DNA from: Clostridia bacterium
GTDB lineage: Bacteria > Bacillota > Clostridia > Lachnospirales > Lachnospiraceae
DNA length: 41,286 nt
Reading direction: 5' to 3'
Assembly (NCBI GenBank): GCA_026000945.1
Contig: BNZI01000001.1
Span: 122,501-163,786, forward strand
The notes below the pieces were generated by a model, which saw only the letters and a program-made list of their open reading frames with translations, was not told the origin of the DNA and made no database searches. A program made the translations under genes and the position numbers. Positions 14,107-41,286 of this stretch are shown here, one piece after another. The number at the start of each line of letters is the position of its first letter. Position 1 is the stretch's first letter.

Positions 14107-16976
<2,870 letters not shown>

Positions 16977-16980
<4 letters not shown>

Positions 16981-17020
16981 GTTTTCCTTTTCTTCACTAT
17001 GCGCTTTTCAGTGTATGTTT
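16977..17020 (+). other. 3' arm of the 23S rRNA processing stalk
   Basis: This segment pairs with 14061-14106 to close the 23S stem. A diverged copy of it (ATTTTATTTCTCTTTTC, then TTTACCGTGCGC) occurs at about 18235-18270 in the duplicated block, where no matching 5' arm was seen. Confidence 0.7.
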
Positions 17021-17022
17021 TT

Positions 17023-17093
17023 AGGGGTATAGTTCAATGGTAGAGCAGCGGTCTCCAAAACCGTAAATAGGGGTTCAAATCCTCTTACCCCTG
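17023..17093 (+). tRNA. tRNA-Trp (CCA)
   Basis: 71 bases. Acceptor AGGGGTA pairs perfectly with TACCCCT, and the discriminator is G. The anticodon loop CTCCAAA gives CCA. The D-arm is short and the T-arm is GGGTTCAAATCC. It lies directly after the 23S stalk and probably belongs to the same transcript. A decayed copy lies 1260 bases downstream. Confidence 0.95.
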
Positions 17094-17165
17094 TTTGAAT
17101 TTAGAATAAGTTTGCATTTTGTTCATTTTTTGATGAAATGCAGACTTCTTTGATTTTTACTGGAA

Positions 17166-17221
17166 AACGAGATATCCTCATTTGAGTAAGACCTTTAGTA
17201 GACGACTAGGTTGCTAGAAGG
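17166..17221 (+). repeat. duplicated fragment of the 23S rRNA 3' region
   Basis: This 56-base stretch (CGAGATATCC, then TTTGAGTAAGACC, then TAGTAGACGACTAGGTTG) is nearly identical to 16871-16927 inside 23S. It lies between tRNA-Trp and the first short-chain dehydrogenase. The corresponding place before the second dehydrogenase (about 18410) lacks it, and there TTTTTACT joins AAAAAAAGGAAG directly. It is an rRNA remnant left by recombination, either inserted in copy 1 or lost from copy 2. Confidence 0.85.
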
Positions 17222-17237
17222 AAAAGGAAGTGTATGA

Positions 17238-18029
17238 ATGAAACACATTGCCATTGTTACGGGAGCTTCTTCAGGTATAGGTCGTCATTTTGTTTATCGA
17301 TTAGCAAAGGATAAAACATATAGCCAGTTAGAAGAAATTTGGATTATTGCACGTAGAAAAGACAGATTACAACAATTAAAGCAAAAAATCAGTCAACATT
17401 CTTCAGTTTTAATTAAAGTTTTTGCTTTAGATTTGCAGGATAAAGAAAGTATTATACAATTTAAAAAAGAACTAGAAAAAAGTAAAGTTGTGGTTAGTTA
17501 TTTAATTAATTCTGCGGGTTATGGGAAATTAGGTAGTTTTTTTAGCGGAGATTTCGAGGAACAAATGGGCATGATTCGCCTGAATGTGGAGGCTTTGTCT
17601 GCTTTAACACATATTGTTTTACCTTATTGTATTGGTGGTAGTCATATTCTTCAAATTTCTTCTTCAGCAGCTTTTGTGCCGCAGCCTCATTTTTCTATAT
17701 ATGGAGCTACGAAATCTTTTGTAGTTTCTTTTTCCAGAGCATTACATCAGGAGTTACGTAAAAAAAAGATTTGGGTGACTGCGGTTTGTCCTGGTCCTGT
17801 TCAGACAGAATTTTTTCAGATGGCGCTCTCGAATCCTTCTAAAAAATTTGATGCTTCAAAGATAGGTGCTTCAGCTTCTTCTATCGTAAAAAAGGCTTTA
17901 TCAGATGCCAACAAGTGTAAAGAATTCTCTATTTACTCGCCTTTAATGCAAATTTTTTATGTGCTATCTAAGCTTGTACCCCATCGTTTTTTATTGAGCG
18001 TATTTTATTATTTTAATCAAAGGATATGA
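17238..18029 (+). CDS. short-chain dehydrogenase/reductase, copy 1
   Basis: 263 aa SDR-family oxidoreductase, probably NAD(P)-dependent. The Rossmann signature is IVTGASSGIGRHF (residues 6-18). The middle NAG-type motif reads INSAGYGKLG. The active site has ISSSAAF followed by YGATKSF (Tyr-x-x-x-Lys), and VCPGPVQTEF follows. It resembles the DltE/YqjQ-like group, but no substrate can be given. ATG at 17238 has AAAAGGAAG upstream. It is roughly 80% identical to the gene at 18429. It lies in a tandem duplication with rRNA and tRNA remnants and may depend on readthrough from the rRNA unit. Confidence 0.88.
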   Translation: MKHIAIVTGASSGIGRHFVYRLAKDKTYSQLEEIWIIARRKDRLQQLKQKISQHSSVLIKVFALDLQDKESIIQFKKELEKSKVVVSYLINSAGYGKLGSFFSGDFEEQMGMIRLNVEALSALTHIVLPYCIGGSHILQISSSAAFVPQPHFSIYGATKSFVVSFSRALHQELRKKKIWVTAVCPGPVQTEFFQMALSNPSKKFDASKIGASASSIVKKALSDANKCKEFSIYSPLMQIFYVLSKLVPHRFLLSVFYYFNQRI

Positions 18030-18175
18030 GCTCCTTATATTAAGCCATAGAAAGTATTAATAAAGCAGGTTAATCGCTAAACAAGGAAAATAAAGAAAAG
18101 GAATACTTAAAAGGATGAGCAGTTGCTATACCTTGAAAGTCCTTCTGGTGAAAATGAAAATCAATCGAATGGTTT

Positions 18176-18282
18176 AATGGGAGGTAGCTATATACTGGAT
18201 AAGCAGTTTAGCTGTCTCTTATTCGTTGATTGAGAGATTTTATTTCTCTTTTCTTTACCGTGCGCTTTTGGCGTACGTTTTC
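18176..18282 (+). repeat. degenerate second copy of the 23S 3' end and stalk
   Basis: GGGAGGTAGCTATATACTGG, then AGCAGTTTAGCTG, then GTGCGCTTTTGGCGTACG match 16917-17022 (GGAGGTAGGTGTACGCTGGG, ACCAGTTTAGCTG, ATGCGCTTTTCAGTGTATG) with many substitutions. It runs straight into a decayed tRNA-Trp, in the same order as the intact locus. The match shows that the duplicated unit includes the end of the rRNA operon. Confidence 0.85.
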
Positions 18283-18349
18283 AGAGGTATATAGGGTAAA
18301 GCAGCGCTTTCCAAAACTGTAAATGAGGCTTTCAATCCTCTTACCCATG
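18283..18349 (+). pseudogene. tRNA-Trp pseudogene
   Basis: Aligned with the intact tRNA-Trp at 17023, this copy keeps AGCAGCG, the anticodon region TTTCCAAAACTGTAAAT and CAATCCTCTTACCC. The acceptor arms (AGAGGTA against TACCCAT) no longer pair fully, and the D-arm has lost its GTTCAATGGT loop. It cannot fold as a normal tRNA. Together with the neighbouring rRNA remnant and SDR copy, it marks an old tandem duplication. Confidence 0.85.
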
Positions 18350-18428
18350 TGGAATAAGTTTGTATTTTGTGTATTTCTTTAACAAATGCAGACTTATTTG
18401 ATTTTTACTAAAAAAAGGAAGTGTATTC

Positions 18429-19220
18429 ATGAAACATATTGCAATTGTTACAGGGGCTTCTTCAGGAATAGGTCGTCATTTTGTTTATCAATTAGTAAAG
18501 GATAAAAAATGTAGTCAGGTAGAAGAAATTTGGATCATCGCACGTAGACGAGAAAGATTGCAACAATTAAAGCAAAAGATTAATCAACATTCTTCAGTTT
18601 CAATAAAAATTTTTGCTTTAGACTTGCAAAATAAAGAAAGTATTGTACAATTAAAAAAGGAACTAGAAAAAAGTGAAGCTGTGGTTAGTTATTTGATTAA
18701 TGCTGCGGGTTATGGAAAATTAGGCAGCTTTTTTAGTGGAGATTTTGAGGAACAGATAGGTATGATTGATTTGAATGTGAAGGCTTTGTCTTCTCTAACG
18801 CATATCGTTTTACCCTACTGTATTTGTGGTAGTCATATTCTTCAAATTTCTTCAGCGGTAGCTTTTTTACCACAACCTAATTTTTCTGTATATTCAGCCA
18901 CGAAATCTTTTGTATTTTCTTTTTCCAGAGCATTACGTCAAGAGTTACGTAAGAAAAATATTTGGGTGACTGTGGTTTGTCCCGGTCCTGTCAATACAGA
19001 ATTTTTTCAGAGGGCGCAATGGAATCCTTCTAAGAAATTTTATCCTCCAATAATACGTGCTTCAGCTACTTCTATCGTAAAAAAGGCTTTATCAGATGCT
19101 CATCATTGTAAAGAATTGTCTATTTGTCCACCTTTGATGCAATTTTTTTATGTGCTGTCTAAGCTTGTGCCACATCGTTTTGTACTGAACACATTTTATC
19201 ATTTTAATCAAAGGGCTTGA
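18429..19220 (+). CDS. short-chain dehydrogenase/reductase, copy 2
   Basis: 263 aa, the same length as the gene at 17238 and about 80% identical by eye. The cofactor motif IVTGASSGIGRHF and the catalytic YSATKSF (Tyr-x-x-x-Lys) are intact, so it is probably functional. Differences lie mainly in the C-terminal substrate-binding part (for example NTEFFQRAQWNP against QTEFFQMALSNP), which could mean changed specificity. The RBS AAAAAGGAAG is followed by ATG at 18429. The gene is kept whole although the linked tRNA copy has decayed, which suggests selection. Confidence 0.87.
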   Translation: MKHIAIVTGASSGIGRHFVYQLVKDKKCSQVEEIWIIARRRERLQQLKQKINQHSSVSIKIFALDLQNKESIVQLKKELEKSEAVVSYLINAAGYGKLGSFFSGDFEEQIGMIDLNVKALSSLTHIVLPYCICGSHILQISSAVAFLPQPNFSVYSATKSFVFSFSRALRQELRKKNIWVTVVCPGPVNTEFFQRAQWNPSKKFYPPIIRASATSIVKKALSDAHHCKELSICPPLMQFFYVLSKLVPHRFVLNTFYHFNQRA

Positions 19221-38225: not shown

Positions 38226-39659
38226 ATGGCGAAAAATAAAAGAAAATTGAAAAAGCCTTCTATTTTAGAAGAAGAGTCGAAAGAAAATCAAAAAACAGAA
38301 GATCCAATTCGTGAGGAAAGTGTGAAACCAATAGAAAATCTTAATAGAAAAGATGCAATAAACAATCAAAATTTAACTGAACCACCGATGCCAGAAATGC
38401 AAGAGGGACCTCAAGCAAGCCCTTTGTTTACCATTAAGCAATATTTAAATAAGAAAAAAGAAGAATGGTCAGCCCAAGAAAAAAAATATTACCAGGATCA
38501 TACTCCTTGTACAAGAGAAGAATTTTTAACTTTATTAGGTGCAGTGGCTAGTTTGATGTCGAAACATTCTTCATTTACTACTATTTCAGTAGGTGAGGAA
38601 GCTACACCAGACGATATCCGCCAATATTTGCAAACAAGGTTTCGTGTTACGGATAAAAATAGTTTTCTTCGTTCTGTTCGTGTACAATTGATGGATGGCG
38701 CACAAAGTGAATATTTACAATTTTTGAAATTGTGGAATAAAACAGGAACCATTAAAGAAGAAGATATGGATGAGGATTCAAGAGAAGTTTTTGCAGAGTG
38801 TCAAAGCTTTGCTGAACAATTTTATCCGGTTATTCAAGAAGATGGATTTTATGCATGGGATTTAGGTGAAACTGTAGAACGGGTGCGCTTAGCGTTTTCT
38901 TGTGGTCTTATTGAAGAAAGTTTAGCTGATGCGATTTTAGAAGATGTGGGAAATCGAGCAATTGCTGGCTTTAAATCATGGACAAATTATGCCATCAGTT
39001 ATGTTTGCGGGGGGGCATACTTTATGTTTCGTGCGAATGATCGCAATGAAGAAGAGGGTATGCGCATGTTGGAGCAATTAATGGAAAAAGTTCCGCTCTT
39101 ATTTTCTGATAGTGATCTAGGATATTGGGCAAAATATCCATGGATTTATCAGCAAACCTTAAAAAGTGCATCTGTGATTGAATTACTTCCTGAAGAGGAA
39201 AAAAAGCAGTATGAACAAGCCTTAGCTTTATATCAGCAAGGACAGGTATCTGAAGATGTTAATGAAACCATTGCTTTTTATGAAAAAGCAGTGGAAGCCA
39301 TGCCTGCGTCTTTACAAGGAGACACAGAAGCAGTGGGAGAAATCATCAAAGCGTTAGGAAAAGTATACTTAAATCAACAAAACTATGTACAAGGTCTCAT
39401 TCAATTTACACAGCAAATGCGTTGCCATTCCGCCCAAAATACAGAATATGCTTTAGCAGCTTTACATGCAGGTATTTGTGCGTACGAATTAGGTTCGGAA
39501 AAAGATGCTTTGCATTATTTCGAGTTAGCTCATTCTGTTAGTGGAAATAAAATATTCCATCATCAAGAAGAAAAGTATAAGCTACTATGGGAAAACAGTC
39601 AAAAGGGTCAATCAGAGGAACAAATGCAAGAAAAAAAGAGTACACAAAAAAGAAAATAA
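38226..39659 (+). CDS. DUF1266-like protein with TPR-like C-terminus
   Basis: 477 aa, no signal peptide or membrane helix. The first ~75 residues are charged and low-complexity (KKPSILEEESKENQKTED). The middle (about 200-280) fits DUF1266: YAWDLGETVERVRLAFSCGLI, then AGFKSWTNYAISYVCGGAYFMF. The C-terminal ~130 residues look like tetratricopeptide-type helices (ALALYQQGQVSEDVNETIAFYEKAVEAM and ALHAGICAYELGSEKDALHYFELA), suggesting protein binding. Biochemical role unknown. It is a single-gene unit with its own promoter and terminator. Confidence 0.75.
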   Translation: MAKNKRKLKKPSILEEESKENQKTEDPIREESVKPIENLNRKDAINNQNLTEPPMPEMQEGPQASPLFTIKQYLNKKKEEWSAQEKKYYQDHTPCTREEFLTLLGAVASLMSKHSSFTTISVGEEATPDDIRQYLQTRFRVTDKNSFLRSVRVQLMDGAQSEYLQFLKLWNKTGTIKEEDMDEDSREVFAECQSFAEQFYPVIQEDGFYAWDLGETVERVRLAFSCGLIEESLADAILEDVGNRAIAGFKSWTNYAISYVCGGAYFMFRANDRNEEEGMRMLEQLMEKVPLLFSDSDLGYWAKYPWIYQQTLKSASVIELLPEEEKKQYEQALALYQQGQVSEDVNETIAFYEKAVEAMPASLQGDTEAVGEIIKALGKVYLNQQNYVQGLIQFTQQMRCHSAQNTEYALAALHAGICAYELGSEKDALHYFELAHSVSGNKIFHHQEEKYKLLWENSQKGQSEEQMQEKKSTQKRK

Positions 39660-39667
39660 ACAAAAAG

Positions 39668-39715
39668 AAGACAAGTTTGCACTTGAAAAAATCAAAAGCA
39701 GGCTTGTCTTTTTTT
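39668..39715. terminator. bidirectional terminator between convergent genes
   Basis: AAGACAAG (39668-39675) pairs with CTTGTCTT (39703-39710), with a T-run 39709-39715 on the plus strand and an A-run mirrored on the other side. It ends the DUF1266-like gene and lies one base beyond the stop codon of the opposing EFR1-type gene. Confidence 0.8.
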
Positions 39716-39716
39716 A

Positions 39717-40487
39717 TTAATGGATTTGGTTGTTGGCAGCCACAATTTCTCCTAGTTTGACTTCTGGGTGTATCCAACGTTTACTACTTTTCTCGTTTTT
39801 TAAATGAATGGCATTATGAGGACAAAGATGTAAGCAAGCAAAGCAAGATTCACAATTGTTGCCGAACTCTACGTGTTCTTTTACTTGGATATTTGCCGTA
39901 GGGCATACTTTTTCACAAATCAGACATTTTACGCATTGACTATTGACTTGAAAAGACTTTGCTTGCCCTCGATTTAATCGGTATGTTACCTTTCGTTTGC
40001 TAAAAAAGGAGCGTATTTTATCTGCAAAGGAAATCGTTTTTGGAGCTGTTTCTACCCGTTGATCAATATCATCTAAAATTTTTTCTAAATTTTCTTCTAT
40101 ATGTTTTTTTGGAATTTTTTTAATTTCATCTTCCATTGCAAAACTAGGTAAATAATTTTCTACCATTAATAAGGTTTTTAGATAATGAAAATGTTTTCCG
40201 TTACTTTCCATCTCTTTTTGAAATTGCTGTAGAGTGAATTGGTCTGAATTACCGTAAGTAGCAATAGCAAAGCTATATTCCGCTTTCCAATTTACTTTTT
40301 TAAGAAAATCTTGTACCATTTGGGGAGGTGAAAACGCATAAATGGGAAAAACCACTCCAATGATATCATCTTCAAAAAAATTTAAGTTGGGCGCATGAAT
40401 TAAATGTGGTATGGACATTAACCTTCCCCCTATGCGTTTGGCAACGGTAAGGCAGTTTCCGGTAGCGGTAAAATAAAAGATTGTCAT
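39717..40487 (-). CDS. EFR1-family flavodoxin/ferredoxin protein
   Basis: 256 aa. The N-terminal half is flavodoxin-like with the FMN phosphate loop YFTATGNCLTVAKRIG (residues 5-20) and VVFPIYAFSPP. The C-terminal part holds two 4Fe-4S clusters of the ferredoxin type: CVKCLICEKVCP and CESCFACLHLCP. Proteins of this EFR1 type are common in anaerobic Firmicutes and are thought to shuttle electrons; the partners are unknown. The gene stands alone. Its stop lies next to the shared terminator. Confidence 0.88.
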   Translation of the reverse strand: MTIFYFTATGNCLTVAKRIGGRLMSIPHLIHAPNLNFFEDDIIGVVFPIYAFSPPQMVQDFLKKVNWKAEYSFAIATYGNSDQFTLQQFQKEMESNGKHFHYLKTLLMVENYLPSFAMEDEIKKIPKKHIEENLEKILDDIDQRVETAPKTISFADKIRSFFSKRKVTYRLNRGQAKSFQVNSQCVKCLICEKVCPTANIQVKEHVEFGNNCESCFACLHLCPHNAIHLKNEKSSKRWIHPEVKLGEIVAANNQIH

Positions 40488-40679
40488 GGCTAATCCTTTC
40501 CGTAAAAAAATCAGTATTTTTTATTTTTATTATGCCATGTTATAAAGTATTTAGTCTATAAGATATATCATCAATAGAAATAGGAAAACGAGATAAGTAT
40601 TCATGAAACAAAATTTTAAGTATATAAGTTATAAATAAAATTTCATATAAAAAATAAATTTTTAAAATAATTAAATGAA

Positions 40680-40708
40680 TAGACAATAAATATTTAATAT
40701 GTTATACT
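40680..40708 (+). promoter_or_regulatory. sigma-A promoter of the small-peptide unit
   Basis: TAGACA (40680-40685, 5/6), 17 bases, TATACT (40703-40708, 5/6). Transcription would start near 40715, 24 bases before the peptide ATG. The region 40488-40679 upstream is very AT-rich and shows no gene. Confidence 0.65.
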
Positions 40709-40738
40709 TAAACATATTATACAAATAAAGGAGACAAA

Positions 40739-40867
40739 ATGAAAAAAAATATTACTTCCATGATTTCAGGGGTGTTATTTTTTAGTGTAATATCTATCTC
40801 AATACCTGTATATGCCACAGTAGTGAGTCAATTTAGTAAAGGAAAAACTTCCGCTATCTTTTGGTAA
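40739..40867 (+). CDS. small secreted peptide, 42 aa, function unknown
   Basis: A 42-codon frame with an excellent RBS (AAAGGAG, 40727-40733). Residues 1-26 look like a Sec signal peptide: MKKN, a hydrophobic core and IPVYA before the predicted cut. Cleavage would release a 16-residue peptide, TVVSQFSKGKTSAIFW, with two lysines, a net charge of about +2 and an aromatic C-terminus. It is followed within a few bases by a two-helix membrane protein. It could be a peptide signal, a bacteriocin-like peptide, or the truncated start of a lost exported protein. I do not recognise a family. Confidence 0.55.
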   Translation: MKKNITSMISGVLFFSVISISIPVYATVVSQFSKGKTSAIFW

Positions 40868-40873
40868 TGATTG

Positions 40874-41062
40874 ATGAAAAGAAAATTAGCTTTAATCGTT
40901 TTTATTTTATGTACAATTTTTTTATTCACTTATCCCACTCTACTCTTGAAGGATGGTATAGATGAGTTTACCATCGTACATGTTGTACCTATTTGTACTG
41001 CTTTATTGTCCATTAATCTTTTTTGTGTATTTAGTATATTTTTAGGGAAAAATAAAGAATAA
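40874..41062 (+). CDS. small two-helix membrane protein, 62 aa
   Basis: 62 aa from ATG 40874; TTG 40871 is an alternative. It starts MKRKLALIVFILCTIFLF, has one helix at about 5-25, an outside loop KDGIDEFTIVHVV, a second helix at about 37-57 and a charged end GKNKE. Topology would be both ends inside. It begins six bases after the stop of the secreted peptide, with no clear RBS of its own, so translation is probably coupled. As a partner of a secreted peptide it could be an immunity, export or sensing protein; this is inference only. Confidence 0.55.
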   Translation: MKRKLALIVFILCTIFLFTYPTLLLKDGIDEFTIVHVVPICTALLSINLFCVFSIFLGKNKE

Positions 41063-41099
41063 ATATAAAATGTTTGTTTTTTTATTTTAAAAAGTGATT

Positions 41100-41140
41100 G
41101 TAGAAAAAAACCGGTGGAATTTTCACCGGTTTTTTTCTAC
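41100..41140. terminator. strong symmetrical terminator
   Basis: GTAGAAAAAAACCGGTG (41100-41116), loop GAATTTT, CACCGGTTTTTTTCTAC (41124-41140). The 17-bp perfect stem with a GC-rich tip and A/T runs on both sides works in either direction. It closes the peptide unit 38 bases after the membrane-protein stop. The remaining 41141-41286 shows only a possible -10 (GATAAAAT near 41238) and no gene. Confidence 0.9.
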
Positions 41141-41286
41141 TCATAAGAAAGATAAAATGAAAATAATCTGGGTTTATTCTTTATCTTTTCTTCAAAAGTG
41201 AAAGTAAAATTTTATTGGTTCTATTTGTCGTTTTATGATAAAATAACTTTTAATAGAAAATTTATCTCAATTTACGTCCGGTTTTA

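Follow-up and report, generated by a model that had tools for sequence, protein, structure and literature searches.

Some bacteriocins are exported by Sec, among them the class IIa bacteriocins bacteriocin 31, enterocin P, and hiracin JM79, whose further genes are given as unknown in excerpts of a review (PMC3546714). According to the same excerpts, the immunity genes of some other bacteriocins, e.g., the class IIa bacteriocin leucocin A, are located directly downstream of the peptide gene (PMC3546714). DUF4280 is assigned to the PAAR class in an excerpted account (PMC8651086). The locus presented in this study pairs a predicted secreted peptide (ORF1) with a small predicted membrane protein (ORF2) near the right end of the window, i.e., the whole stretch of 41,286 nucleotides that was analysed, which covers bases 122501-163786 of contig C1 (163,786 bp) and ends where the contig ends. 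The locus is organised like a small operon, an arrangement that is hard to obtain by chance, and ORF1-ORF2 is somewhat likely to be a working operon of some kind. As a fuller statement, we tentatively propose a lineage-restricted bicistronic operon, most likely for a bacteriocin-like membrane-active peptide and a membrane immunity protein. The pair may encode an antimicrobial and the corresponding protector, or it may be an orphan that does not work; no known family accommodates it.

The assembly of the source genome comprises 1.22 Mb in 125 contigs and is 67.6% complete, and the genome is the only member of its genus among the genomes compared. In the best 80 of 590 loci for PEP carboxykinase (72-83% overall), Anaerocolumna is nearest (83%), and other Lachnospiraceae and Herbinix are at approximately 80%, which makes Lachnospiraceae the probable family of the source bacterium. 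The left neighbour of the pair is a divergent flavodoxin/ferredoxin-like gene (39717-40487), and the remaining tail of the window (40488-41286) has a GC content of 23% versus 36% in coding DNA, the lowest of 13 stretches compared (next lowest, 29%). Elsewhere in the window, two tandem duplicated 263-aa genes (17238-18029 and 18429-19220) are short-chain-dehydrogenase-like by eye and share 79% DNA identity over 1119 bp (16905-18023 versus 18166-19214); by coordinates, the start of the stretch 16905-18023 falls inside the 23S end.

Anatomy of the two-gene unit

The unit and the adjoining repeat contain the following features.

40680..40708, + strand: promoter-like site, TAGACA (40680-40685), 17-nt spacer, TATACT (40703-40708), 10/12 matches
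40695..40719, unstranded: operator-like dyad TAATATGTT-N7-AACATATTA, 9-nt arms, 100%, overlapping the -10 box
40727..40733, + strand: Shine-Dalgarno AAAGGAG, 7-base match, 5 nt before ATG 40739
40739..40867, + strand: ORF1, 42 aa, signal peptide MKKNITSMISGVLFFSVISISIPVYA and predicted mature 16-mer TVVSQFSKGKTSAIFW
40868..40873, + strand: junction TGA TTG, second in-frame stop and junction codon
40874..41062, + strand: ORF2, 62 aa, two hydrophobic helices, 2-26 and 31-60 in the model
41100..41140, unstranded: hairpin terminator, 20-nt arms, 95% complementary
41156..41286, + strand: dispersed repeat of 131 bp at the contig end, outside the two-gene unit

The two ORFs, the Shine-Dalgarno sequence, the common reading frame, and the terminator hairpin are established as sequence, and ORF1 and ORF2 are the only two ATG-started ORFs of at least 35 aa on either strand of 40488-41150. 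The preliminary description had claimed one short unit that encodes an exported peptide next to a small membrane protein, with the TAGACA-17-TATACT promoter, a strong ribosome-binding site, a 42-aa signal-peptide ORF yielding a cationic, aromatic-ended 16-mer, an adjacent 62-aa two-helix membrane ORF, and a perfect terminator. This layout holds, with every element in its place; the terminator hairpin is likewise present, but the incomplete complementarity of its arms means that it is not perfect. The common frame and the lack of a separate Shine-Dalgarno sequence for ORF2 had been missed, and the description was silent on the in-frame double stop, the contig end, and the adjoining toxin-island repeat.

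The promoter-like site carries an upstream TG before TATACT, and 39600-41286 holds 9 such sites versus 8.1 (sd 2.6) in shuffles, i.e., a count at chance level. The dyad over the -10 box possibly serves as an operator that gates the promoter. When the 80 bp of the promoter stretch were shuffled 1000 times, a comparable dyad arose in 2.9% of the cases. The 8-nt-arm pattern of the dyad has no second copy in the source genome with 0 or 1 mismatches; allowing as many as 3 gives 36 matches per strand versus 32 in the control, which is not an excess.

The predicted signal peptide of ORF1 consists of 26 residues ending in VYA, with the cleavage site placed by eye, and is classed as a Sec signal peptide of a small peptide by a simple rule rather than a dedicated predictor. 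The predicted mature 16-mer has two lysines, no acidic residue, and an aromatic C-end, and the YGNGV/L motif of class IIa bacteriocins is absent from it. ORF2 is 62 aa long from ATG 40874, or 63 aa from TTG 40871. It is predicted by single-sequence AlphaFold2 to form a two-helix hairpin (mean pLDDT 77.3, pTM 0.52), as expected for two membrane helices.

The two ORFs are joined as FW-TAA-TGA-TTG-ATG-AAA-AGA, and ORF2 starts 6 nt past the first stop of ORF1. No Shine-Dalgarno sequence is seen before the ORF2 ATG, which implies coupling or re-initiation. The same frame, the 6-nt gap, and the missing ribosome site of ORF2 would also suit a leader peptide, i.e., an ORF1 whose translation or export arrest controls ORF2 as the sole functional product. 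Of 100 shuffled versions, 99 fold less well than the complete transcript (z -3.66), but this advantage vanishes once the terminator is removed (z 0.41), which speaks against structured RNA; with no unusual fold besides the final terminator, a leader peptide is very unlikely.

The terminator is called by the scanner on the - strand only, and the + strand shows the same stem with T7 by eye, so that the hairpin can serve both directions. One terminator-like site is present in 39600-41286 versus 0.7 (sd 0.8) in shuffles, which is again the chance level. Together with its immediate flanks (41097-41157, 61 bp), the hairpin shares 89% identity with C2:5188-5248, located just after a toxin-cassette array. 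No Rfam family reaches the gathering level in 40488-41286; the best match, rli61 (43.7 of 50 bits, E 1.9e-6, 41099-41190, - strand), lies over the terminator and is probably a composition effect.

Searches for relatives and tests against chance

No homologue of either ORF was found in 397 genomes of the family, 373 genomes at the order level (a sample that overlaps the former in shared genomes), 5.8 billion proteins, contigs, phages, plasmids, and four libraries. For ORF2, 8 of the 397 family genomes match at E<=0.01, and the 7 besides the source genome (1e-36) have per-genome E values of 5e-4 to 8e-3; for ORF1, 20 match at E<=0.1, including the source genome, and the other 19 lie at 0.016-0.092. 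These weak matches are about what chance would give, and no such ORF pair is present at the 10 of the 27 matched loci outside the source genome whose frames were read. At the order level, the source genome is the only match for ORF2 at E<=0.001 and for ORF1 at E<=0.01 (1 of 373 in both cases). In a set of loci picked for likeness (L001-L050), the best matches outside the source genome are at E 4.5e-5 for ORF2 (L006, 30% over 53 aa) and at E 5.5e-5 for ORF1 (L013, the N-terminus of a 301-aa frame).

Among the 5.8 billion proteins, each ORF matches only itself. GTDB contigs, IMG/VR, plasmids, and phages gave no match except that of ORF2 with Plasmavirus L2 (E 0.5). Pfam and NCBIfam gave no match above the cut-off, PADLOC gave none, and the best E value in PHROGs was 0.2, all with profiles that are weak at such length. 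The claim that neither protein is recognised was thus borne out, and none of the searched relatives among the 397 and 373 genomes carries either frame. A distant relative could be missed, since the protein search requires shared 5-residue words and like length and the contig scans require 8-residue patterns; the public scans may omit records of the source genome. Nothing in the family genomes, the public contigs, or the protein database indicates that ORF1 is the truncated beginning of a longer exported protein, although the protein search is blind to much longer relatives. As no homologue of either protein was found, there is no sign of selection.

The common frame, expected in 1 of 3 cases by chance, could mean that a single membrane protein was once encoded here and that the double stop cut it into ORF1 and ORF2. 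However, ORF2 has its own start (MKRK), and the joint frame with X at both stops matched only ORF2 itself in the protein database and has no longer relative there, in GTDB contigs, or in IMG/VR; a split protein is highly improbable.

For the flavodoxin/ferredoxin-like neighbour, 57 of the 397 family genomes give matches at E<=1e-20. Twenty loci of this gene were taken, one of them the copy of the source genome, and the far side was read in three (L032-L034); there, glutathione-peroxidase-like, TetR-like, and MATE-like genes, named by eye, are present and the two-gene unit is absent.

The 799-bp tail (40488-41286) was subjected to 3000 dinucleotide-preserving shuffles, in which an ORF1-like frame was defined by ATG, a Shine-Dalgarno match of at least 5, the signal-peptide rule, and 35-60 aa, and an ORF2-like frame by ATG, at least 50 aa, and two hydrophobic stretches. 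ORF1-like frames arose in 0/3000, ORF2-like frames in 8/3000, and the adjacent pair in 0/3000; because these thresholds were fitted after the case had been seen, the counts serve as a guide and not as a P value. In a survey of 100,369 bases of the source genome (the window and loci L064-L069), 26 frames of 25-90 codons start with ATG and have a Shine-Dalgarno match of at least 5; ORF1 alone among them passes the signal-peptide rule. The operon reading is based on these two results, on the tandem arrangement of the ORFs, with a promoter-like site before and a terminator hairpin after them, and on the modelled hairpin of ORF2. Against it stand the lack of homologues, the background-like codons of ORF2, the promoter and terminator counts at shuffle level, and the GC content of 23%.

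In its choice among synonymous codons, ORF2 resembles background (P 0.44) and fits the genes of the genome poorly (P 0.010), ORF1 is undecided (P 0.10 for background and P 0.22 for the genome's genes), and the two combined give P 0.16 and P 0.013, respectively. When ranked by codon log-odds among pieces of real genes, ORF1 falls in the 5th-25th percentile range and ORF2 in the 1st-5th. Five pieces of the ABC exporter gene served as controls of the synonymous-codon test, and one of them scored nearly as low (0.34; 0.034), so that this test is weak at such length.

These observations bear on a further explanation, i.e., that the tail is orphan or decaying DNA in which the frames are chance products or remnants in a very AT-rich, repeat-bordered stretch next to a toxin island and yield no functional product. 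The absence of relatives for either ORF, the codon use of ORF2, the GC content (the lowest of the 13 stretches), the adjoining dispersed repeat, and the occurrence of an ATG ORF of at least 62 aa in 4.9% of shuffles all agree with it, whereas a Shine-Dalgarno-led signal-peptide ORF with an adjacent two-helix ORF is never reproduced by shuffling. Orphan DNA is a real possibility and the chief rival of the operon reading; given the lack of relatives and the background-like codons of ORF2, non-function is about as likely as any single functional reading.

The contig end and the DUF4280 island

The dispersed repeat begins 93 bp after the ORF2 stop. C1:1-127 matches the last 127 window bases exactly; the two may be one and the same copy. 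The exact overlap of the contig ends looks like an assembler k-mer overlap. At the end of C9, 125/127 bases agree with C1:1-127, and there are other copies or parts on C1 (113879-114117), C21 (two sites), and C8 (a piece of 37 bp). By locus, the copies and the island are distributed as follows.

L064 1-127: repeat copy
L065 5880-5966 and 6067-6118: repeat
L066 5814-5944: repeat copy
L067 8094-8167, 8268-8319, and 8680-8770: repeat
L064 178-1629, L065 6183-8364, and L068 1-5084: DUF4280 island with exchangeable C-termini and immunity genes

The copies on L065 and L067 show an insert of approximately 100 bp between repeated 12-bp ends, MITE-like by eye, which also occurs inverted at L066 5283-5409.

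A DUF4280 gene lies downstream of the repeat at the C1 start, at C1:114k, and on C21, and DUF4280 matches over the cut-off number 5 in the source genome versus 0 in 14 control genomes. The proteins encoded at the C1 start and at C1:114k are long and differ in their ends, and small genes follow each of the two genes. One of these ends is Ntox15, a Tdi1-type immunity protein comes next, and C2 carries further toxin cassettes (EndoU and deaminase). This region is a polymorphic-toxin island, and the right neighbour of the two-gene unit is probably a toxin gene of the DUF4280 kind. The DUF4280 gene of C21 (L067 8434-8676) is cut short, has one in-frame TAG, and lies between two repeat copies; on C10 (L160 from 1483), the DUF4280 match opens a 1740-aa frame that is RHS-repeat-like by eye. 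The phage-sheath gene PF04984 was not found in the source genome, which is incomplete.

ORF2, with or without ORF1, could be an orphan immunity gene stranded from this island, as the repeat precedes DUF4280 genes at the C1 start (which may be the same copy), at C1:114k, and on C21, and the terminator has its sister just after the toxin-cassette array. However, no similar small pair precedes the repeat at C1:113.9k, the C9 end, or C21 (ORFs of at least 40 aa and sequence), or the DUF4280 matches of C10 and C3 within 1.5 kb. The candidate immunity genes of the island are 108-209 aa long and follow a toxin gene or cassette, and the signal peptide of ORF1 has no role in such a model. An immunity gene of a polymorphic toxin would be expected directly downstream of the toxin gene, but the gene upstream of ORF1-ORF2 is the divergent flavodoxin/ferredoxin-like one. 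We regard a stranded immunity gene as unlikely.

The flanks also bear on a peptide signal, in which the 16-mer would be an exported pheromone and ORF2 would aid its processing or sensing. Small size and a Sec-type signal agree with this, and lineage-restricted peptides are common in signalling. However, the left side holds the flavodoxin/ferredoxin-like gene and no receptor, kinase, or regulator gene, and the right side, up to the contig end, starts with the toxin-island repeat; a pheromone is unlikely.

Proposed mechanism and comparison with known systems

In the bicistronic operon that we tentatively favour, transcription would start at the single promoter, perhaps under control of the dyad over the -10 box, and give a short mRNA. 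ORF1 would be translated strongly and exported by Sec, and cleavage after VYA would release a cationic, aromatic-ended peptide of approximately 16 residues. ORF2, which lies in frame 6 nt behind the first stop and has no ribosome site of its own, would be made by coupled re-initiation, and its product would stay in the membrane as a two-helix hairpin. We infer as the most likely use a membrane-active, bacteriocin-like activity of the exported peptide, with ORF2 as its membrane immunity protein. A 16-mer is short for a Sec-exported bacteriocin, which counts against this reading. A bolder version, i.e., a new micro-bacteriocin family in which a Sec-exported, cationic, aromatic-ended 16-mer is translationally coupled to a 62-aa immunity protein with two membrane helices as part of a fast-changing weapon locus bordering the DUF4280 island, appears quite improbable. 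The peptide-signal, bacteriocin/immunity, and toxin/protector readings are drawn by analogy, and no homologue backs any of them. If the pair is functional, an exported membrane-active peptide with its immunity protein would be the simplest mechanism by analogy with the bacteriocin loci described in the review excerpts (PMC3546714). A working pair would be a complete secreted-peptide/immunity operon in approximately 460 bp that is invisible to homology searches; a non-working one would be a fair example of the gene-like pairs produced by AT-rich repeat borders.

ORF1 can be compared with the small secreted peptide signals of streptococci. The exported product is very short in both, as far as the excerpted source describes these signals (PMC6563777); unlike in those systems, no receptor or regulator gene is seen beside ORF1-ORF2 within the contig. 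Compared with DUF4280 (PAAR-type) polymorphic-toxin islands, as described in excerpts (PMC8651086), neither ORF matches a toxin or immunity family, whereas the adjoining repeat belongs to such loci and the toxin/immunity logic is alike. ORF1 differs from the class IIa bacteriocins of the review excerpts (PMC3546714) in its lack of the YGNGV motif and in a predicted mature part of only 16 aa, and no sequence relation was found; it shares with the Sec-dependent members a hydrophobic Sec-type leader on a small peptide. In the leucocin A locus, as described there, the immunity gene is directly downstream of the peptide gene, and ORF2, a putative immunity gene, occupies the same position.
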